NCBI GenBank assembly: GCA_030694905.1
Contig: JAUYTY010000116.1
Coordinates: 1-34,575, forward strand
DNA length: 34,575 bases
Reading direction: 5' to 3'
From: Eubacteriales bacterium
Lineage (GTDB): Bacteria > Bacillota > Clostridia > Tissierellales > Dethiosulfatibacteraceae
Shown: piece after piece, positions 8,265 through 34,575 of the stretch
How the letters are laid out: every line of letters begins with the position of its first letter
How positions within the stretch are numbered: position 1 is the first letter of the stretch
Made by a program: the position numbers and the translations under genes
Notes under the pieces: generated by a model
The model's input: only the letters and a program-made list of their open reading frames with translations
What the model was told of the DNA's origin: nothing
Database searches by the model: none

Positions 8265-9713
8265 ATGAAAAGAAAAACATCATTAAACATCATTCAATTA
8301 AACGACAGTCATTCCTATTTTGAATTACATCAGGAATTGTTCTGGCAGGGTGGACAGGCAGTATATCGTCCTACTGGAGGATACGCCCGAATTGCTACCA
8401 TTGTCAAAAATATCCGGTCTGAGAATACTAAGGGTTTTTTGTTCTGTGATTGCGGGGATACCTTACACGGTACATATCCTGCGCTGCATAGTCAAGGCGA
8501 AGCGATGATTCCTGTTTTGAACGCACTTGGGATTGATGCGATGACTGCCCATTGGGAATTTGCTTTTGGCCCTGAAATCTTCCAAGAGAGAGCCAGTGAA
8601 CTCAATTATCCAGTGCTCGCACTCAATGTTTTTGATCAAAGGACAAAGAAACTGATCTTTCCCCCGTATATAGTGAAAGAAATCGGTGGGCTAAGGATTG
8701 GTCTAATTGGTGCCGCTTCAAATATTATAGACAAGACTATGCCACCGTCTTTCAGTAAAGGAATAGAATTCACTCTAGGTCTTGAAGAACTCCCCCCGAT
8801 CATTGACACACTACGTAATCAAGAGAAGGCGGACCTCATCATTCTTATTTCGCATTTGGGTTTTCCGCAAGACATGAAGCTTGTGGAGGAGGTTTCAGGT
8901 ATTGATATATGCCTCAGTGGACATACACACAACCGTCTTTATAAACCGGTCCTTCAAGGGGAGACACTGGTCATTCAATCAGGCTGCCACGGATCCTTTC
9001 TGGGTCACTTGGAGCTGGAATTGGAAGGCAACAAAATCATTGATTACAAGCACCGATTGATAGAGGTAGAAGAAACTATAGCTCCTGATCCTGAAGTAGA
9101 GGAAATCATACGTCAGGTGTTGGAGCCCTATAAAAAGGAATTGTCAACAGTTGTTGGCAGAACGTCAACGGCTCTCAATCGAGCTACCACATTGGAAACG
9201 ACGATGGACAATTTTCTACTGCAGGTTTTACTTGAAAATACAGGGGCACAATTGGCATTTTCTAATGGTTGGCGTTATGGTGCACCGATAATTCCCGGTG
9301 AGATCACAATGAATGATCTGTACAACATCATACCAATGAATCCACCAATATCAACTACAGAAATATCTGGAAAAGAACTATTGACTATGTTGGAGGAAAA
9401 CCTCGAAAGAACGTTTTCATGTGATCCATACTTGCAGATGGGAGGATATGTTAAACGCTGTCTTGGTCTAAACGTCTATTTTAAGATAGAAAATCCATCG
9501 GGGAATCGTATCCAGAAGCTTTTTATTGGCAATGAAGAAGTTAATCCTGAGCGATACTACACAGCAGCATTTGTCACTTTACAGGGAGTCCCTCAACAAT
9601 TTGGCCGCAATCGTGAAGACCGACCAGATAGGATCATAGATGCGATGCAGTCATATCTAGTCAAGAATAACCCACTTCATGCTGAACTTAGGGGAACTTT
9701 TACAGCAGTGTAA
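8265..9713 (+). CDS. SoxB-like / 5'-nucleotidase-family metallophosphatase, no signal peptide
   Basis: This 482-residue two-domain protein has an N-terminal calcineurin-like metallophosphatase with NDSHS (13-17), CDCGDTLHG (61-69), TAHWEFAFG (94-102), ISHLG and the closing SGHTHNR. The C-terminal domain fits the 5'-nucleotidase substrate-binding family. The AHWEF block in place of the usual GNHEFD, plus a later QMGGYVKR, recalls the SoxB thiosulfohydrolase subgroup more than UshA. There is no signal peptide, unlike most of the family, so it is probably cytoplasmic. GGAGG precedes the ATG by 7 bases. It lies 80 bases after cphA and ends at a terminator. Substrate unknown: nucleotides, sugar phosphates or a sulfur ester are all possible. 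Confidence 0.82.
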   Translation: MKRKTSLNIIQLNDSHSYFELHQELFWQGGQAVYRPTGGYARIATIVKNIRSENTKGFLFCDCGDTLHGTYPALHSQGEAMIPVLNALGIDAMTAHWEFAFGPEIFQERASELNYPVLALNVFDQRTKKLIFPPYIVKEIGGLRIGLIGAASNIIDKTMPPSFSKGIEFTLGLEELPPIIDTLRNQEKADLIILISHLGFPQDMKLVEEVSGIDICLSGHTHNRLYKPVLQGETLVIQSGCHGSFLGHLELELEGNKIIDYKHRLIEVEETIAPDPEVEEIIRQVLEPYKKELSTVVGRTSTALNRATTLETTMDNFLLQVLLENTGAQLAFSNGWRYGAPIIPGEITMNDLYNIIPMNPPISTTEISGKELLTMLEENLERTFSCDPYLQMGGYVKRCLGLNVYFKIENPSGNRIQKLFIGNEEVNPERYYTAAFVTLQGVPQQFGRNREDRPDRIIDAMQSYLVKNNPLHAELRGTFTAV

Positions 9714-9748
9714 GATAACATCACAGTAAAAAATAACCCAGTTAACAC

Positions 9749-9796
9749 AAGGAGTCAACAATACACCTGAAAAGGCGTTTTGTTGATTCTTTAATT
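9749..9796 (+). terminator. Rho-independent terminator after the metallophosphatase gene
   Basis: A long imperfect stem pairs 9749-9761 (GGAGTCAACAA) with 9780-9792 (TTGTTGATTCTTT), extended inward by an ACC/GGC-type pairing, and ends in TTTAATT. It closes the cphB-cphA-phosphatase stretch. Confidence 0.65.
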
Positions 9797-9842
9797 GGCA
9801 GGAGGACAAATATGATATAATTATTCAAGGAGGTTTAAACTG

Positions 9843-11069
9843 ATGAATAAGAAATGGAGGATACTACCAGTAATTTTGGTTGTTTTAATTGTTTTTTGGC
9901 AATTTGGAGGACTAGATTTGATCTTAGCTCGAACTATTTTTGCGCCAGATTATAAACCAAGTTCAACAGATGATGCAAAAACAGAAGAGAGTAGTAAGAC
10001 TAACACAGAGGAACAGAGTTCAAATGAGGAGACAACAGATCATTCTGGTAACAGCGAGAAGATTTTATTTTCTACACAGGACTTAGTTTATGAAATTGAA
10101 ATCATTGGCGAAGGATTGGAAATCCCATGGGAAATAGCACACTTACCTGATGGACGGTTGCTTGTAACTGAGAGATCAGGAAGAGTTGCTATGCTGGATA
10201 GCGGAGAAAAATATGCAGTTCATGATGTAGAGCATATAGGAGAAGGTGGTCTATTGGGCATGGCAGTTAGTCTGGATTTCAAGGAAAGCAGTCAACTTTT
10301 TCTTTATTACACATACAAATCAGGAAATCAAATATATAATAGGGTTTCACGGTTTACCCTTGTGGAAAACGTCCTTACAGACGAGATATATATTTTGGAT
10401 GAAATTCCCGGAGCAAGATTCCATAACGGAGGAAGACTGAAATTTGGTCCTGATGAAAAGCTTTACATTACTACCGGTGATGCTCAGGATTCCAATCTAT
10501 CTCAAGATATTAACTCTTTAGCAGGCAAGATCTTAAGGATTAATCCAAATGGCACTATACCAGAAGATAATCCATTTGAGGACAGCCCTGTATTTGCCTA
10601 TGGATTGCGTAACCCACAAGGTTTGTCATGGCATCCTGTCAGTGGAGAATTATTCGCAAGCGACCATGGACCCAATAGCCAGGATGAAATAAACCTGATA
10701 TTGCCAGGAAAGAATTACGGATGGCCGATAGTGACCTGTCTTGAAGGCGATTCGCAGTATGAAGATCCGGTTACTTGTTATTCGGATTTCACATTGGCTC
10801 CTTCGGGAATAGCTTTTTTACCGTGGAATAACCTGGTAGAATCACCTTTGTATGTAGCAGGGTTAAGAGGTAATATGGTTATGAGAATCGATTTGGATGA
10901 TGTGGGAGGTTTTGTTAGACAAGAGGAGCTGTTTAGAGACTATGGGCGAATTAGAGCTATAGTCTATTATGAAGGTTCTATTTATATAGCTACAAATAAT
11001 AGAGACGGAAGGGGCGTTCCGGGAGAAAAAGACGACATGATCATAAAAATAACACCTATCTTGGAATGA
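9843..11069 (+). CDS. Membrane-anchored glucose/sorbosone dehydrogenase-like beta-propeller
   Basis: This 408-residue protein starts with an uncleaved-looking anchor (ILPVILVVLIVFWQFGG, about 7-23). A Ser/Thr/Glu-rich linker (about 39-75) leads to a six-bladed propeller of the GSDH family. Diagnostic blocks are IPWEIAHLPDGRLLVTERSG (about 98-117), HNGGRLKFGPDEKLYITTGD (about 194-213), YGLRNPQGLSWHP and DHGPNSQDEINLI. Relatives include PQQ-dependent aldose and sorbosone dehydrogenases, but PQQ use is not proven for many members and no PQQ synthesis genes are in the window. The protein should face outside the membrane. AAGGAGG (9827-9833) sets the start. It follows a terminator and appears monocistronic. 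The family call is firm; substrate and cofactor are open. Confidence 0.85.
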   Translation: MNKKWRILPVILVVLIVFWQFGGLDLILARTIFAPDYKPSSTDDAKTEESSKTNTEEQSSNEETTDHSGNSEKILFSTQDLVYEIEIIGEGLEIPWEIAHLPDGRLLVTERSGRVAMLDSGEKYAVHDVEHIGEGGLLGMAVSLDFKESSQLFLYYTYKSGNQIYNRVSRFTLVENVLTDEIYILDEIPGARFHNGGRLKFGPDEKLYITTGDAQDSNLSQDINSLAGKILRINPNGTIPEDNPFEDSPVFAYGLRNPQGLSWHPVSGELFASDHGPNSQDEINLILPGKNYGWPIVTCLEGDSQYEDPVTCYSDFTLAPSGIAFLPWNNLVESPLYVAGLRGNMVMRIDLDDVGGFVRQEELFRDYGRIRAIVYYEGSIYIATNNRDGRGVPGEKDDMIIKITPILE

Positions 11070-22079: not shown

Positions 22080-22931
22080 ATGGCGAGAAAAAAATCTATA
22101 CTCGATCTTTATAAGATGAAAGAAGAAGGCGAGAAGCTGACATGGATTACAGCCTATGATTTTCCAATGGCATCATTTGCCGAACAGGCAGGAATGGATA
22201 TGATTCTAGTGGGCGATTCACTGGGGATGGTGGTTTTGGGTTATAAAGGGACTGTTCCGGTAACCATGGAAGATTGCATCTCCCATTGTCAGGCGGTAAG
22301 ACGAGGTGCTCCGAATACGTTTGCCATGGGTGACATGCCTTTTGGTTCATATCAGATATCCGATGAAGATGCAGTCAGGAACGCGGTGAGATTTCTCAAA
22401 GAGTCTGACATGGACGCTGTTAAGCTTGAAGGCGGAGTACGTGTCGCAAGTAGGATTAAAGCGATATCAGAGGCTGGTATCGTGGTATGCGGCCATATTG
22501 GGTTAACACCTCAGAGTTCAGGTGCATTGGGTGGTTTTAAAGCTCAAGGTAGAAAAGTTAGCGGGGCCAGGGATATGATACGTGATGCCTTGGCTGTTCA
22601 GGATGCTGGTGCGAGAATGATACTGCTGGAAGCCATGCCACCGGAGCTGACCGCATTTATTACGGAACTGCTTGATATACCTGTATATGGGATTGGTGCT
22701 GGGTTGCCATGTGACGGACAGTTGATCATATGCGGAGATATGTTGGGTCTTTTCCAAGCTTTTACACCGAAATTTGTCAAACAATATGCCAATGTCGCTG
22801 AAATATGTGTCAATGCTATGAAAGCATATGTTGATGATGTTAAGCATTCAGCTTTTCCGGAAGATAAGCATGTCTATCATATTCAGGACAGCATTGAGGA
22901 TTTCGAAAAACTCTTTGACGAATTTAGATAA
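22080..22931 (+). CDS. panB: 3-methyl-2-oxobutanoate hydroxymethyltransferase (ketopantoate hydroxymethyltransferase)
   Basis: This 283-residue enzyme moves a hydroxymethyl group from methylene-tetrahydrofolate to 2-ketoisovalerate, giving ketopantoate, the first step to pantothenate. All expected active-site residues are seen: VGDSLGM (Asp46) and GDMPFGSY (Asp85) for Mg2+, VKLEGG (Lys115, Glu117), GHIGLTPQS (His139) and LLEAMP (Glu184). The C-terminal GIGAGLPCDGQ loop is also intact. Length is normal. GGAGG precedes the ATG. No panC, panD or panE lies nearby. Instead a DUF1116 gene follows after 27 bases, so this copy may serve a different pathway or run in the cleavage direction; that is inference. 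Confidence 0.93.
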   Translation: MARKKSILDLYKMKEEGEKLTWITAYDFPMASFAEQAGMDMILVGDSLGMVVLGYKGTVPVTMEDCISHCQAVRRGAPNTFAMGDMPFGSYQISDEDAVRNAVRFLKESDMDAVKLEGGVRVASRIKAISEAGIVVCGHIGLTPQSSGALGGFKAQGRKVSGARDMIRDALAVQDAGARMILLEAMPPELTAFITELLDIPVYGIGAGLPCDGQLIICGDMLGLFQAFTPKFVKQYANVAEICVNAMKAYVDDVKHSAFPEDKHVYHIQDSIEDFEKLFDEFR

Positions 22932-22958
22932 TTGTTAAATTGCATTTAGGAGGAAATC

Positions 22959-24212
22959 ATGAACTCTTTAAACAGATTAACTGAAATAGCCAATCAACAG
23001 GCGATAGAGAGAATTCAATCATCCAGGATTTTTTTAACTGAAATGAGCCAAGCCAAGGAAAAGATTCCATTTTTTGACGGTTATACTTTATTGCATAGCG
23101 GACCGCCTCTTGAATGGTCGAACATGAACACAGCAATGCGAAACGCCATATGCGGCGCTATTGTTTACGAAGGATGGGCTGAAAATCTATCGGATGCTTT
23201 TGACATGGCCGACCAAGGAAAGATAAAATTTGGCAGCGACAATGAAAACAATGCTGTAGGACCAATGGCTGGCATCATTTCACCCACTATGCCGGTATTC
23301 GTTTTTGAAAACCAGATATTCGGAAACAAGGCCTATGTCACAATCAACGAAGGATTGGGAAAGACGCTGCGTTTTGGTGCGAATGATGAATCCGTCATTG
23401 AGAGGTTGAAGTGGATTGAAAAAACCCTTGCACCTATCTTAAAAGAAGCTTTGCTGATAAGTGGACCTATTGATATTACATCCATTATAACTCAAGGCAT
23501 ACAAAGAGGAGACGAGTGCCACAACAGAAACAAGGCGTCAAATAATCTATTTGTCAATCAGATGGCGCCATGGATGGTGAAATGCAGTTCATCCAGGGAA
23601 GACATTGCCGGAGCGCTTACTTTCATGGCGGGTAATGATCATTTCTTTCTCAATCTATCGATGGGAAACAGCAAGGCCACTATGGATGCCATTCATGATA
23701 TAGAACACTGCTCAATAGTATCCTGCATGAGCACCAATGGTTACCAATTGGGTATCCAAGTCTCGGGGACAGGTCGACAATGGTTTACTGCGCCATCACC
23801 ATATGCAAAAGGAAAATACTTTGAAGGCTATGACGAATCTGATGCCAGTACGGTAATGGGGGATTCATACATTTCAGAGGCTTGTGGGATAGGTGCATTT
23901 GCCATGGGCGCTTCCTTGGGAATCGGGCAGTTCATAGGCATCGACACAAAACAGGCTCAGGACTATTCTCTTGGAATGTATGAGATTACAGTGTCTGAAC
24001 ATGAGCATTTCAAAATTCCTGTCTTTGATTTTAGAGGAACACCATTGGGCATAGATATAAGGAAGGTCATCTCTTCAGGAAGGCTACCCATAATAAATAC
24101 CGGCATAGCATACAAAAACCCCGGTGTTGGTCAGATTGGCGCTGGTATAGTCTATCCACCGATGGCGTGCTTCAGAAAAGCCTATGAATCCTATTTACAG
24201 ATAAATCAGTAA
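22959..24212 (+). CDS. DUF1116 (AllG/YlbE-like) protein
   Basis: This 417-residue cytosolic protein fits DUF1116. Its blocks are LLHSGPPLEWSNMNTAMRNA (about 44-63), AICGAIVYEGWA, NAVGPMAGIISPTMPVFVFE and ALTFMAGNDHFFLNLSMGNS. They continue with MSTNGYQLGIQVSGTGRQWF and a C-terminal GIGAFAMGAS and PLGIDIRKV. DUF1116 includes AllG, one of the three AllFGH proteins linked to oxamate carbamoyl transfer in allantoin breakdown. The partners AllF (FdrA-like) and AllH are not adjacent here. It is co-transcribed with panB. Its activity in this context is unknown; a transferase acting on a CoA- or carbamoyl-type intermediate is a guess. Confidence 0.82.
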   Translation: MNSLNRLTEIANQQAIERIQSSRIFLTEMSQAKEKIPFFDGYTLLHSGPPLEWSNMNTAMRNAICGAIVYEGWAENLSDAFDMADQGKIKFGSDNENNAVGPMAGIISPTMPVFVFENQIFGNKAYVTINEGLGKTLRFGANDESVIERLKWIEKTLAPILKEALLISGPIDITSIITQGIQRGDECHNRNKASNNLFVNQMAPWMVKCSSSREDIAGALTFMAGNDHFFLNLSMGNSKATMDAIHDIEHCSIVSCMSTNGYQLGIQVSGTGRQWFTAPSPYAKGKYFEGYDESDASTVMGDSYISEACGIGAFAMGASLGIGQFIGIDTKQAQDYSLGMYEITVSEHEHFKIPVFDFRGTPLGIDIRKVISSGRLPIINTGIAYKNPGVGQIGAGIVYPPMACFRKAYESYLQINQ

Positions 24213-25915: not shown

Positions 25916-26036
25916 ACCTTAATTGAGGTAACTCATAAACCCTCCATAATATATGATAGACATTTTTTCATTGAACAATTAACGCCAATAATTTCCTAAA
26001 TATAGCAACTTTTCCCCGAGTTGCTATATTTTTTTT
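25916..26036 (+). ncRNA. Candidate small RNA between promoter and terminator
   Basis: A promoter-like element (25881-25909) and a strong terminator (25999-26036) bound about 120 bases with no reading frame of note. It contains a 5' inverted repeat (25914-25931), a single-stranded-looking CCCTCC (25940-25945) complementary to ribosome sites, and a terminator loop TTTCCCCG. C-rich unpaired patches are a known seed type in Gram-positive regulatory RNAs. I match it to no known family. The alternative is simply the 3' untranslated end of ppk2-GNAT. Confidence 0.3.
25999..26036 (+). terminator. Very strong Rho-independent terminator
   Basis: A 12-bp perfect stem (25999-26010 with 26019-26030, core TATAGCAACT) closes an 8-base TTTCCCCG loop and is followed by T to 26036. 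It separates ppk2-GNAT or the candidate small RNA from the long operon downstream. The 471-base gap 25858-26328 thus holds a promoter, this terminator, a second promoter and an operator. Confidence 0.92.
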
Positions 26037-26146: not shown

Positions 26147-26175
26147 TTGACAAGGAAAAGGTTTTCTATTATCAT
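26147..26175 (+). promoter_or_regulatory. Promoter of the KASIII-LIV-CoA-transferase operon
   Basis: A perfect TTGACA (26147-26152) and TATCAT (26170-26175) are 17 bases apart. It is the only good promoter before the eight-gene operon. The predicted leader is about 145 bases. Confidence 0.72.
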
Positions 26176-26328: not shown

Positions 26329-27345
26329 ATGACAACGGTAGGGATTGTTGGAATAGGCATATATATTCCAGATAGAATAATGACAGGCAAAGAAATTTCA
26401 GATGAAACCAAAGGTGTATGGACCGAGGAAGCGGTAGTCAACAAGCTTGGCATCAGACAAAAAAACCTCCCCGGTAAAAATGATGGGACCCAAGAAATGG
26501 GTGCGTTGGCAGCATTGGACGTCCTGAAAAAAACAGGAACCGATCCTATGGCTATTGATGTGATTCTTTGTGTGGGAGAAGAGTGGAAAGAATACCCTCT
26601 AACAACTTCAGCTCTTTATATTCAAGACAGGATCAATGCAAAGAACGCATGGGGTATTGACTTGGCCAATAGATGCTGCACAACAGTATCGACCATGAAA
26701 ATTGCAAAAGACATGCTGATCAGCGATGAATCAATCAACACCATACTCATTGCAGGCGGCTACAGAAACTGTGACCTTGTGGATTATACAGACAATGATA
26801 TGTCAATGATGTACAATCTGGGAGCGGGGGGTGGCGCCATTATACTCAAAAAAAATCACGATAGAAATCTACTATTAGGTTCCCATATTATCTCGGACGG
26901 ATCCCTATCAAGAACTGCAGGAGTCGAGATTGGTGGGACAGTCAAGACAATCAATACTCAAAATTTAGAAGTTGCCAACATGTTAAGACTAATGGAACCA
27001 AAAAAAATGAAAGACAGACTCAATGAAGTATCCATGAAGAATTGGTACGAATGCATTGATCAATCCCTCTTAAAATCAGGATTAGAGAGAAAGGACATTG
27101 GTTACTTGGCAATACTGCATATGAAAAGATCAGGTCACAATCAGATCATGAAGGACTTGGGTTTGGATGACGGGAAAACGATATATCTCGAGCAATACGG
27201 ACATATCGGACAGATTGATCAGATTTTATCGCTGCAATTAGGACTGGACGAGAAAAAAATCGAAGAAGGCACCATCGTTTGTATGGTCGCAGCAGGCATT
27301 GGATATGCCTGGGCTGCTAATATCATCAGATGGGGCAAGAGTTAA
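26329..27345 (+). CDS. KASIII/HMG-CoA-synthase-like thiolase-fold enzyme A
   Basis: This 338-residue protein has the thiolase fold of the 3-oxoacyl-ACP synthase III family. It opens VGIVGIGIYIPDRIMT. The nucleophile region is DLANRCCTTVSTMKIAKDM, with Cys116 aligned to the catalytic Cys and an adjacent Cys117. His264 or His270 lies in LHMKRSGHNQIM, where the catalytic His is expected. The usual Asn motif (GNTSAAS-like) is instead YGHIGQIDQ, with His292. It ends AAGIGYAWAANIIRWGK. The family forms or breaks C-C bonds in acyl-thioesters by Claisen chemistry. A paralogue (32241-33275) shares these features and closes the transport block. AGGAGG precedes the ATG. It probably acts on a CoA ester made by the CoA-transferase downstream, not in fatty-acid synthesis, as no ACP or fab gene is near. 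Confidence 0.8.
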   Translation: MTTVGIVGIGIYIPDRIMTGKEISDETKGVWTEEAVVNKLGIRQKNLPGKNDGTQEMGALAALDVLKKTGTDPMAIDVILCVGEEWKEYPLTTSALYIQDRINAKNAWGIDLANRCCTTVSTMKIAKDMLISDESINTILIAGGYRNCDLVDYTDNDMSMMYNLGAGGGAIILKKNHDRNLLLGSHIISDGSLSRTAGVEIGGTVKTINTQNLEVANMLRLMEPKKMKDRLNEVSMKNWYECIDQSLLKSGLERKDIGYLAILHMKRSGHNQIMKDLGLDDGKTIYLEQYGHIGQIDQILSLQLGLDEKKIEEGTIVCMVAAGIGYAWAANIIRWGKS

Positions 27346-27422
27346 TTTGTATTAAAAAGGGATTTACAAAAAGACTTATGACCTGAACAGGTTATAAATA
27401 TTAACAAAAAATGGAGGAGAAA

Positions 27423-28670
27423 ATGAAAACCAAAAAAATCATCGTAATACTGGTAGTACTTGCTATGATGCTTAACATCGCAGCCTGCTCACAACCACAG
27501 CAAACTACAACAGCCGCACCTACTACAGCAGCGCCAACAACAGCAGCACCGACTGAAGCACCAAAAGAGCCGATCGTAATTGGTGGATTGACATCGCTTA
27601 GCGGTGGTTTGATGGACTACGGCAATCAGATGAAAAGAGGCTTTGAACTTGGTCTGGAGTATGCCACAGACGGAACTATGATGGTAGCCGGAAGACCAAT
27701 TGAAGTCATCTGGGAAGACACAACCACAGTCCCTGAAGTTGCAAGAGAAAGAGCAATCAAGCTGCTTGACGAAGACGAAGTGGATATGATAGTTGGTCCT
27801 ACATCTTCATCCGATGCTTTTGCTATTCTTGGTCTAGCAGAAGAGTACGAAACAGTGTTCATTCTCGAGCCGGCAGCAGCAGATTTTTTGACAGGTGAAG
27901 TGGCAAACAGATATATCTTTAGAACAGGAAGAAATACAGCACAGGATGCAGCGGCAATGGCAGCAGTTATGGCAGGATCCAAAGTATCTATATTCGCACC
28001 TGACAGCGCATTCGGAAGAGCCTATACAGATCCGTTCAAACCAGCTTTGGAAGCAGCAGGTGGACAGGTCTTGGCTGAAGAGTATGCACCCCTTGATTCA
28101 ACTAACTTCGCACCTTATATTCAAAGAATTATTGACTCAAAACCAGACTATTGTTTTGTAATATGGGCAGGCGCGAACGATCCATGGAGACAAATGACAG
28201 AAATGGGATTGTTTGAAGCGACAAAAGTGTCAACAGGAGCACCTGAAATTGCAGCACTTAGAAACATGATGCAATTGGAAGGTATGCCAGGATTTACTCT
28301 GTATTACCATGGCGTGGCAAAGAACCCGGTTAATGAATGGTTGATAAAAGAGCATACGGAAAGATTTGGTAACCCTCCGGATGTATTCGTTTCCGGTGGT
28401 ATGGCAGCAGCTATGGCAGCCGTCAAAGCTTTTGAGACTACAGATGGAAGCACTGATGCAGAAGATTTGATTCAAGCTATGAGAGGTATGGAATTTGACT
28501 CGCCGACAGGCATGAGATATTTCAGATCAGAAGACCATCAGGCACAGCAGGTATTGTTTGAAATCACATACACCAAAGTCGATGGCGTGGATCACATTGT
28601 TCCTGAATTGGTAAGGGTAATCCCGATAGAAGAAATATACAATCCGATTCAAACAACTCATCCCAGATAA
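27423..28670 (+). CDS. LIV-type ABC transporter substrate-binding lipoprotein
   Basis: This 415-residue extracellular binding protein is of the leucine/isoleucine/valine (type I) class. The signal peptide ends in lipobox IAAC (Cys22). A Thr-Ala-Pro repeat linker (three TTAAP units, about 30-47) tethers the domain. The mature fold starts with IVIGGLTSLSGGLMDYGNQM and includes DEVDMIVGPTSSSDAFAIL and the hinge-region block KVSIFAPDSAFGRAY. ATG 27411 is in frame, but GGAGG lies between it and ATG 27423, which I choose. Members bind amino acids, amides, aromatic acids or other small acids, so the name leucine-binding should not be taken literally. It is followed by all four remaining subunits. 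Confidence 0.92.
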   Translation: MKTKKIIVILVVLAMMLNIAACSQPQQTTTAAPTTAAPTTAAPTEAPKEPIVIGGLTSLSGGLMDYGNQMKRGFELGLEYATDGTMMVAGRPIEVIWEDTTTVPEVARERAIKLLDEDEVDMIVGPTSSSDAFAILGLAEEYETVFILEPAAADFLTGEVANRYIFRTGRNTAQDAAAMAAVMAGSKVSIFAPDSAFGRAYTDPFKPALEAAGGQVLAEEYAPLDSTNFAPYIQRIIDSKPDYCFVIWAGANDPWRQMTEMGLFEATKVSTGAPEIAALRNMMQLEGMPGFTLYYHGVAKNPVNEWLIKEHTERFGNPPDVFVSGGMAAAMAAVKAFETTDGSTDAEDLIQAMRGMEFDSPTGMRYFRSEDHQAQQVLFEITYTKVDGVDHIVPELVRVIPIEEIYNPIQTTHPR

Positions 28671-28698
28671 ATAAATAATAAAGGGGAAGGATGTAGAA

Positions 28699-29469
28699 AT
28701 GTCAGAAATAATTTTAAGAACAGAAAATCTGGGCATCAGCTTTGGCGCTCACAAGGCGGTAAACAACGTTAGTCTTGAAATTGAAAAGGGTAAATTGACA
28801 ACCATCTTGGGACCAAATGGCGCAGGCAAAACAACGTTCTTTAATCTAGTGAGCGGTCTACTAACCCCTACAACCGGAAAAATCTTTTTTAAGGGGACAG
28901 ATGTTACAAATCTGTCCCCCATTAAAAGGGTTGAAGCGGGAATGGGAAGGTCTTTTCAGTTAACCAATGTTTTTCCAACACTTTCAGCACATGAAAACAT
29001 CAGGTTGGCTGCACAGTCACATCAGAAAGTGGGCTTTAAGATATTTACCAATCACAGGAAATATAAGAACGTAAATGAAAAGACAGAGCTGATTTTAGAG
29101 AGAGTTTTGCTGAAAGATAAGAAAAATACATTAGCCTGTGACCTGACTCATGGTGAGCAAAGAAAACTGGAATTAGGGATGGTATTGGCCCTTGAACCTG
29201 AAGTATTGCTTCTGGATGAACCAACAGCGGGCATGGCTATTGAAGAAGTACCCGCAATGATTGAAATAATAAGGAACGCTCATCAATCGGGCACAACGGT
29301 GGTTTTGATAGAACACAAGATGGACATGGTTAAAATTCTATCGGATAGATTGGTCATATTGGTTAACGGATCTGTCATGGCAGATGGAGATCCCAAAACA
29401 GTATCAGAGAATCCGGAAGTCCTTAAAGCTTACCTGGGAGGTGGGATGTTAGATGAAGTCTCTTCTTAA
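28699..29469 (+). CDS. livG: LIV-type ABC transporter ATPase LivG
   Basis: This 256-residue ATPase has Walker A LGPNGAGKTTFFN (about 37-49), signature LTHGEQRKLELGM (the LivG form, with Thr-His-Gly for Ser-Gly-Gly), Walker B VLLLDEPTAGM and the switch EHKMD. FQLTNVFPTLSAHENIRLA is typical of LivG. It pairs with LivF on the cytoplasmic face to power uptake. The gene is 28 bases after the binding-protein gene and overlaps livF by 17 bases. Confidence 0.94.
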   Translation: MSEIILRTENLGISFGAHKAVNNVSLEIEKGKLTTILGPNGAGKTTFFNLVSGLLTPTTGKIFFKGTDVTNLSPIKRVEAGMGRSFQLTNVFPTLSAHENIRLAAQSHQKVGFKIFTNHRKYKNVNEKTELILERVLLKDKKNTLACDLTHGEQRKLELGMVLALEPEVLLLDEPTAGMAIEEVPAMIEIIRNAHQSGTTVVLIEHKMDMVKILSDRLVILVNGSVMADGDPKTVSENPEVLKAYLGGGMLDEVSS

Positions 29470-30157
29470 AGCGGAAAATTTAGTTTCTTACATTGGTCCT
29501 TATACCATTCTTCAGGGAGTTGACATCGAAGTGGGTCATGGGGAAGCGGTTGTCATTCTTGGTAGAAATGGGGCAGGAAAGACCACATTCCTTAGAACAG
29601 TAATGGGATTGGTTCATACCAGAAGCGGCGTTCTAGAACTGGATGGTCAAAATCTGGCAGGAATGCCAACTTACGCAATTCAAAAGCTGGGGATAGGTTA
29701 TGTGCCTGAGAATTATGGAACCTTTGATCTGTTGACGGTGGAAGAAAACCTACGGCTTGCAATGTGGAAAGAAGACGCCGAAACCATGGAGCGAAGGGAC
29801 TATGTTTTGGACCTTTTTCCGGACCTGAAGGTTGCTTACAAAAGATACTCAAAAACTTTGAGTGGCGGACAGAGACAGATGCTGTCCATAGCTAGACCAT
29901 TGGTGAACAACAATAAAATACTATTGATAGATGAACCGAGTAAAGGCTTGGCACCAGTCATAATTGAAAGAGTAGCACTTGCGCTTAGGGAAATCAAAAA
30001 AACCACAACTGTGCTTCTTGTAGAACAGAATTTTGCGCTTGCCTGTGCCGTTGGGGAAAGATTCTATATCATCAATGAAGGAAAAACTGTTGAAAACGGT
30101 GCGATGGAAAACCTGATTAAGGATAAGGAACTGCAGGCTAAGCATCTGGGGATATAA
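29453..30157 (+). CDS. livF: LIV-type ABC transporter ATPase LivF
   Basis: This 234-residue ATPase has Walker A LGRNGAGKTTFLRTVMGL, the LivF-type GIGYVPENYGTFDLLTVEENL, signature LSGGQRQMLSIARPL, Walker B ILLIDEPSKGLAP and switch VEQNF. The start lies inside the end of livG, with GGGAGGTGGG upstream, implying translational coupling. It completes the ATPase pair. The permease gene livH follows after 38 bases behind a good AGGAGG site. Confidence 0.94.
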   Translation: MKSLLKAENLVSYIGPYTILQGVDIEVGHGEAVVILGRNGAGKTTFLRTVMGLVHTRSGVLELDGQNLAGMPTYAIQKLGIGYVPENYGTFDLLTVEENLRLAMWKEDAETMERRDYVLDLFPDLKVAYKRYSKTLSGGQRQMLSIARPLVNNNKILLIDEPSKGLAPVIIERVALALREIKKTTTVLLVEQNFALACAVGERFYIINEGKTVENGAMENLIKDKELQAKHLGI

Positions 30158-30195
30158 TGCTTGAAGTTTTAGCGGATCAAAAGAAGGAGGATTAA

Positions 30196-31188
30196 ATGGG
30201 TACATTAATAACTTTAATTGTAAGCGGTCTTGCGGAAGGGGCATTGATATTCTTAATGGCGTCAGGCTTGTCTATCATACTAGGCATGATGGGAGTTATC
30301 AACTTCGCCCACGGAACCTTGTTTCTTTGGGGAGGTTATGCTTACATGTTTTCATATTATTCAATTAGAGCCAGAGTGATATTGAGTGTTTTCCCCGATG
30401 CATTTCAGACTGGGACCCAAGGTGGAATACTCAGAGTAACCGGTGTTCAGCTACAAGCCGGACAATATTTACCATTCTCTCAAGAGTTGCTAATATTTGT
30501 CGTCAGTATTCTTATTGCAGTTTCGGTAGTCTTCATTATGGGAATTATATTTGAAAAATTATTTATTAGCCGTGTTTACGGGAATGCGCCGGCGCAAATT
30601 CTGATCACATTGGGATTGCAGGTTGTCTTCACTGACTTGGTGAGGGTTATTTGGGGACCCAATATGATTCCGATGTCTAGGCCTCCGTTTCTGGATGGAG
30701 TTTCATCATTTGCAGGTGGAAGGATAGCACATTATAATGTTTTTCTTATTATTGTTGGGGCAACAGTAGCAATTATTATTCATAGGGTCATTACTAAAAC
30801 TAGAATCGGGATGGTAATCAGAGCTGGATTGCAAAGCCCGGAAAATGTACAGGCACTTGGCATAAACATAAGAAAATACTTCACTGTCATATTTGCTTGC
30901 GGTGCTGCTTTGGCTGGATTAGGCGGTGCACTCTATATGCCGCTTGTTGGAAATGTCGTATCTTCTGCAGGTATGAACAATCAAATTCTGGCATTTATAG
31001 TCGTGGTAATCGGTGGACTTGGAAATTTCATGGGATCATTCCTTGGCAGCATCTTTTTAGGATTGATGGGAGTCGGTGTTGCTGTATTCTTGCCGGCCAT
31101 TTCAGTTGTGGCCAATGTCCTGGTAATGGCCATCGTCTTGGTATTTAGACCTGATGGATTATTTGGAAAGGCGGTGAACAAATCATGA
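30196..31188 (+). CDS. livH: LIV-type ABC transporter permease LivH
   Basis: This 330-residue permease has about eight membrane helices. Diagnostic blocks are GALIFLMASGLSIILGMMGV and INFAHGTLFLWGGYAYMF near the N-terminus and a C-terminal FIVVVIGGLGNFMGSFLGS with the EAA-like contact loop before it (GINIRKYF). It is longer than the usual 290-300 residues because of an extracellular insert of about 35 residues after the second helix (about 57-92, containing QTGTQGGILRVTGVQ). The stop overlaps the livM start (ATGA), so the two permeases are coupled. Confidence 0.93.
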   Translation: MGTLITLIVSGLAEGALIFLMASGLSIILGMMGVINFAHGTLFLWGGYAYMFSYYSIRARVILSVFPDAFQTGTQGGILRVTGVQLQAGQYLPFSQELLIFVVSILIAVSVVFIMGIIFEKLFISRVYGNAPAQILITLGLQVVFTDLVRVIWGPNMIPMSRPPFLDGVSSFAGGRIAHYNVFLIIVGATVAIIIHRVITKTRIGMVIRAGLQSPENVQALGINIRKYFTVIFACGAALAGLGGALYMPLVGNVVSSAGMNNQILAFIVVVIGGLGNFMGSFLGSIFLGLMGVGVAVFLPAISVVANVLVMAIVLVFRPDGLFGKAVNKS

Positions 31189-32213
31189 GTATAAGAATAA
31201 ATGTAGCGGATCAAATGGGATCAAAAAAAATGGGGCCATTGGCTCTGGTATCGTTAATAATACTAGTAATCGGAATGTTTGTTTTACCGCGTTATCTAAA
31301 AAACGCCCAACTGATAATGATGAGTCGAATTTTTTTGTTGGCAGTATATGGTATGAGCTATGATATATTGAGAGGATACACTGGGTTCATCAACCTTGGC
31401 CAGGCTATCTTCTTTGGAAGTGGCGTTTATATGGGCGTTATCTTCTTGAACATTCAAAACGACTTGACTTATTTCATGCTGGCTATCCTAGCTATATCAG
31501 CTTTGTCAGTCATAGGTGGTTATATTATGAGCAAGATAGTCTTAAAAACCGGTGGAGTGGTTGCATCTGCTATGATTACCCTTGCATTGGGGGAAATAGT
31601 CAGAAGCATCGCAGAGAGATGGCGATTTGTTACAGGTGGACAGGATGGTCTCCCGATGAGAGCTTCCAGAGTGGCTTTAGATCCATTGTTTGAAACAAGA
31701 ATAGGCGCGTATTACTTCGCATTGGTATTCCTGATTGTAATGACACTTGCGTTGAGGCAATTTGTATTGTCGCCGACAGGTCGTGTGCTACTGTCAATCA
31801 GGGAAAATGAGCAACGATCAAGATTTTTGGGTTTCGATACCAATAAATATAAAGCAATCGCAATAATAGTGTCGGCATTGGCTTCAGGTTGGACAGGCGT
31901 GTTTTTCGCAGTCATCGCAAGATTTGCCAATACAGATTACTTAAGTATTCAATACACGTTAAACGCTTTGCTGATAACGCTGGTCGGGGGAACAGGTACT
32001 TTATACGGGGCTATCATAGGTAGTGCCTTTGTAACATGGATCAATAATTTTCTGCTGACGCTGGCTAATAGTTATCCAGGAGCAACTATTCTAAGATTCC
32101 CAATGCTTTTTATCGGTAGCGTTTACATATTATTGGTCATTTTCATGCCTTATGGCATAATGGGGGGCATCTACAGACTGCAGGCCAAACTAAACTTAGG
32201 GAAAGACAAATAA
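31185..32213 (+). CDS. livM: LIV-type ABC transporter permease LivM
   Basis: This 342-residue permease partners LivH. It has the LivM pattern YGMSYDILRGYTGFINLGQA (about 54-73), FFGSGVYMGV, the conserved GGQDGLPM loop, the cytoplasmic ATPase-contact loop SIRENEQRSRFLGFDTNKYK and the closing LVGGTGTLYGAIIGSAFV. About nine membrane helices are visible. It starts at ATG 31185 within the livH stop. The KASIII-like gene B follows after 27 bases with AGGAGG, so metabolism and uptake are encoded in one transcript. Confidence 0.94.
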   Translation: MSIRINVADQMGSKKMGPLALVSLIILVIGMFVLPRYLKNAQLIMMSRIFLLAVYGMSYDILRGYTGFINLGQAIFFGSGVYMGVIFLNIQNDLTYFMLAILAISALSVIGGYIMSKIVLKTGGVVASAMITLALGEIVRSIAERWRFVTGGQDGLPMRASRVALDPLFETRIGAYYFALVFLIVMTLALRQFVLSPTGRVLLSIRENEQRSRFLGFDTNKYKAIAIIVSALASGWTGVFFAVIARFANTDYLSIQYTLNALLITLVGGTGTLYGAIIGSAFVTWINNFLLTLANSYPGATILRFPMLFIGSVYILLVIFMPYGIMGGIYRLQAKLNLGKDK

Positions 32214-32240
32214 GCATTAAAGTCTTAAAAGGAGGTTCAA

Positions 32241-33275
32241 ATGGACAAAAAATTCAAAGTGGGCATATTGGATTACGCTATTTACACACCGGAAGAAATG
32301 ATTACAGCAGAGGAATTGTCTAAACTGGTGAATATTAGACCTGAAGTGTTAAGGGATAAGATGGGGATCAACAAGAAATTTGTAGGTGGATCTGAAGACC
32401 ATTCTGGCATGATGGCAACAAAGGCCAGTAAAGCAGTATTGGAAAAAACAGGTATCGATCCGCAGACGATCGACATGATTTTATATGCTGGAGAAACCTA
32501 CGCTGAATACATTTGTTGGACAGTGGGCATTAAGATACAAAATGAAATAGGTGCGGACAACGCATACGCTTGGGACCTGTCCTTCAGGTGCGCCGGAACA
32601 CCATTGGCTATAAAAATTGCTAAAGATATGATGTATGCTGATGAAAACCTGAAGACGGTTCTAGTGACAGGTGGCAATACAAATTCTTATCTGGTGGATT
32701 ATCAAGATCCAATGCAGTCATTTATGTTTGATATGTGTCCCGGTGGATTTGCAATGATTCTTAAAAGAGATTATGATGTAAATGAAGTATTGGGCAGCGG
32801 CATCATTACAGACCATGTTTTCAGTGACGATGTTATTGGGAAATTCGGCGGTACGTTGCATCCTATCACCAGCGAGATGGCTGGCGATCCGGAAAAATTC
32901 AGGAGAGCTAAACTACTTAACTTATCAGATCCGGAAGGAATGAAAAAAAGGCTGGCTGAAAGATCACTTCCCGGTTTTACCGGAGCAGTCAGAAAAGCTT
33001 TGAAAGCATCCGGACTGAAAGCAAGCGATATAGATTTCATAGGCATTACCCATATCAACCCAAAGGCACACTACGCCATCATGGAAGAGTTGGGAATATC
33101 GGAGGAAAAAACATTCTATCTATCCGATTTTGGACACTGCGGACATGCGGATCAATTGATAGCATTGCGTGAGGGTGTCAAAGCAGGAAAAATCAAGGAT
33201 GGTTCAGTGGTCGCTCTTGTGGGAGCTGGTACAGGTTATGCATTTGCCTGTTCGTTGATCAAATGGGGAAAATAA
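32241..33275 (+). CDS. KASIII/HMG-CoA-synthase-like thiolase-fold enzyme B
   Basis: This 344-residue paralogue of the operon's first gene opens VGILDYAIYTPEEMIT. The nucleophile block is DLSFRCAGTPLAIKIAKDM with Cys117. ITHINPKAHYAIMEELG supplies His271 and His277. The motif that is normally Asn-containing reads DFGHCGHADQL with His299, as in enzyme A. It ends GAGTGYAFACSLIKWGK. The two share layout and C-terminus throughout, yet differ enough in the middle to be old paralogues. They may form a heteromer, as PqsB and PqsC do, or act on successive intermediates; both keep a candidate nucleophilic Cys. It lies between livM and the CoA-transferase gene, with 27- and 22-base gaps. Confidence 0.8.
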   Translation: MDKKFKVGILDYAIYTPEEMITAEELSKLVNIRPEVLRDKMGINKKFVGGSEDHSGMMATKASKAVLEKTGIDPQTIDMILYAGETYAEYICWTVGIKIQNEIGADNAYAWDLSFRCAGTPLAIKIAKDMMYADENLKTVLVTGGNTNSYLVDYQDPMQSFMFDMCPGGFAMILKRDYDVNEVLGSGIITDHVFSDDVIGKFGGTLHPITSEMAGDPEKFRRAKLLNLSDPEGMKKRLAERSLPGFTGAVRKALKASGLKASDIDFIGITHINPKAHYAIMEELGISEEKTFYLSDFGHCGHADQLIALREGVKAGKIKDGSVVALVGAGTGYAFACSLIKWGK

Positions 33276-33297: not shown

Positions 33298-34575
33298 ATG
33301 AGTGTAAAGGATTTATATGCCAGTAAAGTAAAAGATCTTAACGGAATTCTAAACCTGTTCAAATCAGGGGACTTCATCATAAGCGCATTAGGCGGGAGCG
33401 AACCAATCACTATTTTGTCACAGATTCACAGGATAAAGGAACTTGGCGTCAGGGACTGTGATCTTAGCAATTGTCTTCCTATGGCTGATTATGAATACAT
33501 AAAAAACCCCGAGTATAAGGACACCATTTTTACAAATGGCTGGTTCTATTCTCCTCCAATAAGAAAAGCACATCCTAACGGCAATGTGTCACATGTGCCC
33601 CAACATCTTCATTTTGCTTACACAAAGCGTCGCTATGCAGCAGGAGACAGAAGAAAGGTGTTGTTATGCACTTGCTCTCCAATGGACAAACATGGCAATC
33701 TGACACTTTCCTTGGGATGTACCTATGAGAAGGAAGTCATTGAAGACGGCGCTTATGTGATTGCAGAAGTCAACCCCAATCTACCGAGAACTATGGGTGA
33801 TACGACCATACATATCAGTGAACTGGATGCCATATTGGAAGTGGACTACAAAATACCTTCATTACCGGAAGGCTTGTTTACTGAAAAAGACAACAGAATC
33901 GGTGAGTTTATAGCAGACAATATTCAGGATGGGTCAACTATCCAATTAGGGATTGGCGGCATACCAAATGCGGTGGCAAATGCCTTGAAAAGCAAAAGGC
34001 GTCTGGGTATCCATACAGAAATGTTTACAGATGGCATGGTTGAGCTTGTTGAATGTGGTGCGGTTGACAACTCAATGAAGACAATCTACAGGGGAAAATC
34101 CATCGCTACCTTTGCATTAGGCAGTCAAAAGCTATATGATTATCTTGATGACAACCTATCAGTGGTATTAAGAAAAGGAAGTTGGACAAACGATCCACAT
34201 GTGGTTGGGCAAAACCATAAGATGGTGTCCATCAACACAACCCTTGAAGTGGATCTGTTCGGCCAATGCGCTTCGGAATCCATAGGACCTGTCCAATTTT
34301 CAGGTACAGGAGGCCAGGCAGACACGGCTGTTGGCGCTCAGAATTGTCCGGAAGGCAAATCGTTTATTGCGCTATACTCCACTGCGGATGTTAGAGGTGA
34401 AGACGGAAATAAGAAAATCATATCTAAGATTACACCACTGTTGAAAACCGGTTCAATTGTCAGCCTGTCCCGAAATGATGTTGATTACGTTGTTACAGAG
34501 TACGGTGTGGCTTGGCTAAGAGGCCAGTCTATAAGAGAAAGGGTTAAGAGATTGATTGCAATTGCTCATCCTGAT
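33298..34575 (+). CDS. Family-I CoA-transferase (acetyl-CoA hydrolase/transferase type), cut by the window edge
   Basis: An open frame runs from ATG 33298, with AAGGAG upstream, to the window end: 426 codons without a stop. The product fits the 4-hydroxybutyrate/butyryl-CoA:acetate CoA-transferase and acetyl-CoA hydrolase family. It has the N-terminal FKSGDFIISALGGSEP, the middle IQLGIGGIPNAVANAL and the catalytic block FGQCASESIGPVQFSGTGGQ with the candidate active-site Glu327. A later VDYVVTEYGVAWLRG is the usual C-terminal motif. Full-length members are 430-460 residues, so only a few dozen codons are missing. It would activate an imported acid to its CoA thioester, using acetyl-CoA or another donor. 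It is the last visible gene of the operon that begins at 26329. Confidence 0.92.
   Translation, partial: MSVKDLYASKVKDLNGILNLFKSGDFIISALGGSEPITILSQIHRIKELGVRDCDLSNCLPMADYEYIKNPEYKDTIFTNGWFYSPPIRKAHPNGNVSHVPQHLHFAYTKRRYAAGDRRKVLLCTCSPMDKHGNLTLSLGCTYEKEVIEDGAYVIAEVNPNLPRTMGDTTIHISELDAILEVDYKIPSLPEGLFTEKDNRIGEFIADNIQDGSTIQLGIGGIPNAVANALKSKRRLGIHTEMFTDGMVELVECGAVDNSMKTIYRGKSIATFALGSQKLYDYLDDNLSVVLRKGSWTNDPHVVGQNHKMVSINTTLEVDLFGQCASESIGPVQFSGTGGQADTAVGAQNCPEGKSFIALYSTADVRGEDGNKKIISKITPLLKTGSIVSLSRNDVDYVVTEYGVAWLRGQSIRERVKRLIAIAHPD

Follow-up and report, generated by a model that had tools for sequence, protein, structure and literature searches.

What reaction is catalyzed by β-ketoacyl-acyl carrier protein (ACP) synthase III (KASIII)-like enzymes whose catalytic Asn motif has been exchanged for Gly-His (GH)? 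The question is raised by two genes, A and B, that lie in one operon with an importer and a coenzyme A (CoA)-transferase in an Eubacteriales bacterium of the Dethiosulfatibacteraceae (assembly GCA_030694905.1). The window analyzed is the whole contig JAUYTY010000116.1 (34,575 nucleotides). An earlier note on this DNA had described the exchange and proposed that a second active-site His favors cleavage, hydrolysis or transfer over condensation. The exchange is confirmed below and the argument from the His is not. Our tentative reading, held at somewhat less than even confidence, is that A and B are catabolic CoA-dependent carbon-carbon acyltransferases of a thiolase-like kind, probably acting on a short imported 3-hydroxy or 3-oxo acid.

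A and B have intact open reading frames (ORFs) and are 39-40% identical to each other. Both exceed the 315-bit cut-off of NCBIfam model NF005308 (PRK06840, '3-oxoacyl-ACP synthase'; A, 454.9 bits; B, 377.8 bits) and fall well under the 292.1-bit cut-off of the FabH profile TIGR00747 (A, 102.9 bits; B, 128.1 bits). The Pfam domains ACP_syn_III and ACP_syn_III_C are both over their cut-offs. AlphaFold2 gave confident models for A (pLDDT 94.1, pTM 0.93) and B (pLDDT 93.2, pTM 0.92), and the fold comparison, made with A only, returned a KASIII fold, with FabH/KASIII structures matching at Z = 36-39 over 301-325 residues and a root-mean-square deviation (rmsd) of 2.1-2.7. Judged from the predicted model, FabH (Z = 39.2, rmsd 2.4 over 319 residues), BioZ (Z = 38.8, rmsd 2.5 over 323 residues) and PqsBC (Z = 38.6, rmsd 2.4 over 323 residues) are tied as structural matches of A. 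Thiolase, HMG-CoA synthase and KAS I/II are absent among the 50 structure matches listed for A, which does not exclude them, and a search for an HMG-CoA synthase reference row matched 0 of 81 genomes at E ≤ 1e-60. PRK06840 is an already named family; a search for its name in a library of 5.39 million papers found none, literature searches on the family or its pathway turned up nothing pertinent, and the papers listed on Cys-His-Asn and Cys-His-His triads concerned other enzymes.

Residue columns were counted in 99 aligned rows (83 A-type, 3 B-type and 13 of a third paralogue, C), with 6 of 105 matches dropped for being shorter than 315 or longer than 450 residues. The comparison set was 24 FabH rows, 7 of 30 FabH loci being left out; one row, 24% identical to the E. 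coli enzyme, looks mis-framed and probably explains the odd letters in the FabH counts. Single-sequence, profile-sequence and profile-profile alignments all put YGHIGQIDQ of A (His292) and FGHCGHADQL of B (His299) into the column of Asn274 in E. coli FabH, or its equivalent. This column holds His in 83/83 A-type and 3/3 B-type rows, Tyr in 13/13 C-type rows and Asn in 23/24 FabH rows. The His is fixed across the whole family and therefore does not reflect chance or a sequencing effect. The pattern GH.G..D occurs in 82/83 A-type and 3/3 B-type rows and in none of the 13 C-type or 24 FabH rows. No Asn lies within two residues of the His in A or B, so the alternative that the usual Asn sits at a neighboring position does not apply. 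The active-site Cys (Cys116 in A, Cys117 in B) is kept as the earlier note stated, in 82/83 A-type rows (Ser in the other) and 3/3 B-type rows, and the shared tail, read as G.GY, is equally widespread (82/83 and 3/3). In locus L124, the active Cys of the gene at 9541-10554 is exchanged for Ser.

The second partner residue of FabH, His244, gives a different result. Gap-free profile-profile alignment sets 'LAILHMKR' of A, 'GITHINPK' of B and 'FFTQINK' of C against 'LVPHQANL' of FabH. Leu263 of A and Thr270 of B then stand over His244, and His264 of A and His271 of B stand over Gln245. An explicit register test over a 25-residue stretch prefers this +1 register in 79/80 A-type, 3/3 B-type and 13/13 C-type rows. 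For A, the single-sequence phmmer alignment differs: with gaps introduced, it sets the His on the FabH His. The His in the A His264 column is present in 81/83 A-type rows. By profile alignment, the His near residue 270 that both enzymes were said to keep does not stand on the FabH His but one residue later. Two diverged, adjoining GH-type genes of locus L120 (12436-13512 and 14260-15327) include one with Phe at this position, and the gene at 9589-10614 of L129 has Lys there.

A and B therefore keep the Cys of the Cys-His-Asn triad, have Leu or Thr in the His244 column and have His in the Asn274 column, and both partner residues of FabH are gone. KAS III enzymes use Cys-His-Asn and KAS I/II, the condensing enzymes of chain elongation, use Cys-His-His (PMC4549310, PMC7645780). 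Compared with the KAS I/II set, A and B have two His, the first of them one residue past the FabH catalytic column. A set of Cys, His264 and His292 mis-registers its first His, since His264 falls on Gln245. KAS I/II decarboxylate malonyl-ACP. Because enzymes with Cys-His-His carry out decarboxylative condensation, a second His is by itself no argument for cleavage, hydrolysis or transfer. Cleavage or acyl transfer is favored here because of the gene context, which comprises genes for uptake, conversion to CoA thioesters, oxidation at C3 and butyrate formation, in organisms that may carry an ordinary FabH besides.

Other landmark columns also depart from FabH. The Arg249 column, which we take to be an ACP contact, holds Ser in 82/83 A-type rows and Lys in B. 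Trp32 and Arg151, presumably the residues that hold the CoA adenine, are replaced by Ala, Val, Ile or Asn and not kept in family rows, respectively. The Phe304 column is Ala in 82/83 A-type and 3/3 B-type rows. Lys266 and Asp297 are invariant in all 83 A-type rows. The loop that follows the fourth strand has a conserved Glu (Glu85, 82/83 A-type rows; Glu88 likewise seen), and we liken it to the general-base Glu near the dimer interface of HMG-CoA synthase and OleA. The GH enzymes thus share with FabH/KASIII the fold, the Cys and the GxG tail and differ from it in both the His244 and Asn274 columns and in the presumed ACP-patch and CoA-adenine residues.

These columns bear on a first alternative, that A or B is a chain-starting ketosynthase substituting for a missing FabH in this organism. 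In the window's genome, which is 99% complete, FabF exceeds its cut-off and no protein exceeds the TIGR00747 cut-off for FabH; A and B are its best matches to the FabH profile. Genome G026, of the same order, likewise had no FabH match at E ≤ 1e-25. Against a substitute role, FabH over cut-off coexists with the GH enzyme in three genomes (G018, G052 and G056), the Arg249, Trp32 and Arg151 columns are altered, and the operon is of the importer/CoA-transferase type, not a fab operon. The substitute reading is stronger in the window's genome and weaker across the family, and overall we consider it improbable.

A maximum-likelihood tree of 70 rows, with a bootstrap that is not fully settled, separates A+B from FabH+C on a branch with 100/100 support; B (100/100), C (99/93) and FabH (100/99) are also supported. 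Together with the two near-universal motif signatures and the PRK06840 scores, the tree bears out the proposal of a distinct GHxG subgroup. A scan of contigs from 84,980 species, each represented by a single genome, found A relatives at 69 loci, and many carriers are Tenericutes- and Bacteroidota-type metagenome-assembled genomes (MAGs). At E ≤ 1e-60, 33 of 398 genomes of the phylum contain a match to B, a number that also counts A-type matches; at >50% identity B occurs in only 3/398, counting the window's own. A+B was accordingly rejected as a standard pair. Paralogue C is the commoner partner of A. It adjoins A both in Bacteroidota and at several loci within the phylum of the window, and it carries Cys-Gln-Tyr: the Cys is kept, Thr-Gln stands for the FabH His-Gln and Tyr for Asn274. 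The window's own genome (G000) has a broken C-type gene on a small contig (G000:C106, locus L198, 2461-3117, minus strand), in three pieces and two frames that are 46-59% identical to C of G234; intact relatives are found in other genomes.

PqsBC, in which two KASIII-like genes lie close together and the fold is the same, suggests that A and B could form a heterodimer with one catalytic subunit. The shared operon and the tied structural scores of PqsBC and FabH fit such a pair. The Cys is kept in both A and B, the gene context is unlike that of PqsBC, and the A and B genes of G390 belong to separate gene groups about 20 kb apart. The pairing is also weak because B is rare and A occurs more often with C, and we regard a PqsBC-like complex as very unlikely.

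The operon runs in the order A, solute-binding protein, two ATPases, two permeases, B and CoA-transferase, with intergenic distances of -17 to 65 nt from A to the CoA-transferase (Table 1). A PanB-like ORF (judged by eye) followed by an AllG family protein (oxamate carbamoyltransferase subunit) lies at 22080-24212 of the window.

Table 1. Features of the operon and its upstream region, with codons of the residues discussed.
Feature	Position	Strand	Remark
Terminator-like hairpin, upstream of operon	25998..26031	+	Pattern evidence only; 9 found, 6.0 expected
Promoter-like site TTGACA-17-TATCAT, upstream of A	26147..26175	+	11/12 matches; sites in region no more numerous than in shuffles
Enzyme A, KASIII-like, PRK06840 family, 338 aa	26329..27345	+	
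A Glu85 codon	26581..26583	+	Glu in 82/83 A-type rows
A Cys116 codon, FabH Cys112 column	26674..26676	+	
A Leu263 codon, FabH His244 column	27115..27117	+	
A His264 codon, FabH Gln245 column	27118..27120	+	
A His292 codon, FabH Asn274 column	27202..27204	+	
Solute-binding lipoprotein, HAAT-type ATP-binding cassette (ABC) importer (Peripla_BP_6)	27411..28670	+	
ABC ATPase, LivG/UrtD-like	28699..29469	+	
Second ABC ATPase	29453..30157	+	Sequence judged by eye
ABC permease (BPD_transp_2)	30196..31188	+	
Second ABC permease, UrtC/LivM-like	31185..32213	+	
Enzyme B, KASIII-like, PRK06840 family, 344 aa	32241..33275	+	
B Cys117 codon	32589..32591	+	
B Thr270 codon, FabH His244 column	33048..33050	+	
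B His271 codon, FabH Gln245 column	33051..33053	+	
B His299 codon, FabH Asn274 column	33135..33137	+	
Acyl-CoA:carboxylate CoA-transferase (butyryl-CoA:acetate type)	33298..34575	+	Cut by contig end

Gene neighborhoods were compared in a set of 86 genes, two of them B-type, of which 54 loci had flanks of 6 kb or more on either side. Each probe was a single sequence, and the counts are therefore probably minimum values. Import genes were found at 48 of the 54 loci, an acid-activating gene at 50 and both at 46. An alpha/beta hydrolase was present at 43, a short-chain dehydrogenase/reductase (SDR) at 32, a thiolase at 22, MaoC at 18, the C paralogue at 11 and an acyl-CoA dehydrogenase at 10. The importers are of the ABC or sodium-solute type, and genes of the butyrate pathway are often nearby. 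FabG is the best-scoring assignment for the SDRs tested, and acetoacetyl-CoA reductase also ranks high (3/3). The closest full counterpart, G234, has MaoC, B, a flavin reductase-like gene, an importer, a hydrolase, A, a CoA-transferase and C in a row. Next to this cluster lie, by eye, a crotonase, a hydroxybutyryl-CoA dehydrogenase, a thiolase, an acyl-CoA dehydrogenase and Etf, which together look like a butyrate pathway. A separate module, L075 (1465-2931, G000:C190), encodes a 488-residue HMG-CoA synthase-like KASIII that, judged by eye, seems to continue into a zinc-ribbon (DUF35-like) tail as a fusion and adjoins a thiolase-like gene and a permease.

This context suggests that A and B are catabolic enzymes of the thiolase superfamily, within its FabH/KASIII branch. 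In the usual operon of the family, a carboxylic acid would be imported by an ABC importer or a sodium symporter and converted by a CoA-transferase or a ligase to its CoA thioester. A FabG/PhaB-like dehydrogenase would oxidize C3, and the GH enzyme would then make or break the carbon-carbon bond of the 3-oxoacyl-CoA through its Cys, a reaction in which neither ACP nor a decarboxylation step would be needed. The resulting acetyl-CoA would enter butyrate/acetate fermentation. The likeliest substrate class would be a short (R)-3-hydroxy acid, perhaps 3-hydroxybutyrate or its oligomers; the direction of the reaction and the use of CoA rather than ACP are likewise offered as possibilities. The PRK06840 label '3-oxoacyl-ACP synthase' implies ACP-linked synthesis, and the data point instead to catabolism.

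A plant-derived substrate was weighed against the short hydroxy acid. The pathway could strip the side chain of phenylpropenoid acids of the cinnamate type, with the GH enzyme acting as an aryl-3-oxopropionyl-CoA thiolase. Papillibacter cinnamivorans carries the cluster (L026), a ligase and a crotonase take the place of the CoA-transferase in proteobacterial loci, and HAAT solute-binding proteins often bind aromatic acids (PMC3223731). A literature search for the ligand of the closest solved relative of the window's solute-binding protein yielded no matching paper. MaoC, the FabG/PhaB-type enzymes, the butyrate genes and polyhydroxybutyrate (PHB) depolymerases suit a short hydroxy acid better. 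That many carriers are Tenericutes- and Bacteroidota-type MAGs likewise speaks against the phenylpropenoid pathway. We give the phenylpropenoid pathway only a slight chance.

The frequent hydrolase neighbors raise another possibility, that the GH enzyme is a CerJ-like O-acyltransferase, splitting esters of imported hydroxyacid oligomers with CoA so that a thioester would conserve the energy of the bond. The solved structures matched by sequence include CerJ, which presumably differs from FabH at the Asn274 column as well. The neighboring hydrolases could already split such esters, and the conserved Glu85 may serve carbon-carbon chemistry, as we assume for HMG-CoA synthase and OleA. This chemistry is improbable in our judgment.

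The thiolase-like reading finds a parallel in the AtoB-type thiolases, with which A and B share a catabolic setting and, by motif comparison only, a GH dipeptide in the loop leading to the C-terminal strand, which may be the structural equivalent of the thiolase GHP. Profile comparison with thiolase fails to align the C-terminal half, where this dipeptide lies. Thiolase membership by sequence was rejected, as hhalign aligns the N-terminal half only. Extracellular short-chain-length polyhydroxyalkanoate depolymerase was found in two GH loci of different phyla, G390 (338 bits) and a Bacteriovoracaceae MAG (187 bits; cut-off 150), and the genome-level link of the GH enzyme to PHB depolymerase is modest.

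Several observations weigh against the thiolase-like reading. The second thiolase Cys appears to be absent; the corresponding column, presumably that of FabH Phe304 and the thiolase CxG Cys, is the Ala column described above. A canonical thiolase is present at 22/54 loci, where a second thiolase-type enzyme looks redundant. Neither an SDR nor a hydrolase was seen in the window operon up to the contig end. With 50 of the 69 loci covered, PHB depolymerase exceeds its cut-off in only 6 of the 50 GH-family genomes, set beside 2 of 398 phylum genomes, one of them without a GH match, in sets that are unmatched by phylum. The PF10503 esterase was not found in the window's genome. PHB was rejected as a substrate common to all carriers, since most of them, the window's genome included, lack the depolymerase.

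A more specific form of the thiolase-like reading would make the PRK06840 clade a separately evolved, ACP-independent 'KASIII thiolase'. Having lost both FabH partner residues, its active site would be rebuilt on the His at FabH positions 245 and 274 and the conserved Glu, with C as a Cys-Gln-Tyr partner, and would serve energy-saving CoA-dependent cleavage where members of several phyla use 3-hydroxybutyrate and PHB oligomers anaerobically. We consider this fuller proposal rather unlikely as a whole.

Annotation pipelines label these genes as fatty-acid starter enzymes, and their residues and neighbors disagree with the label. If the enzymes are catabolic, fermentation models of rumen, termite gut and digester bacteria would lack a pathway. 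The clade may also be a natural experiment in which a condensing enzyme alters its chemistry by shifting histidines.

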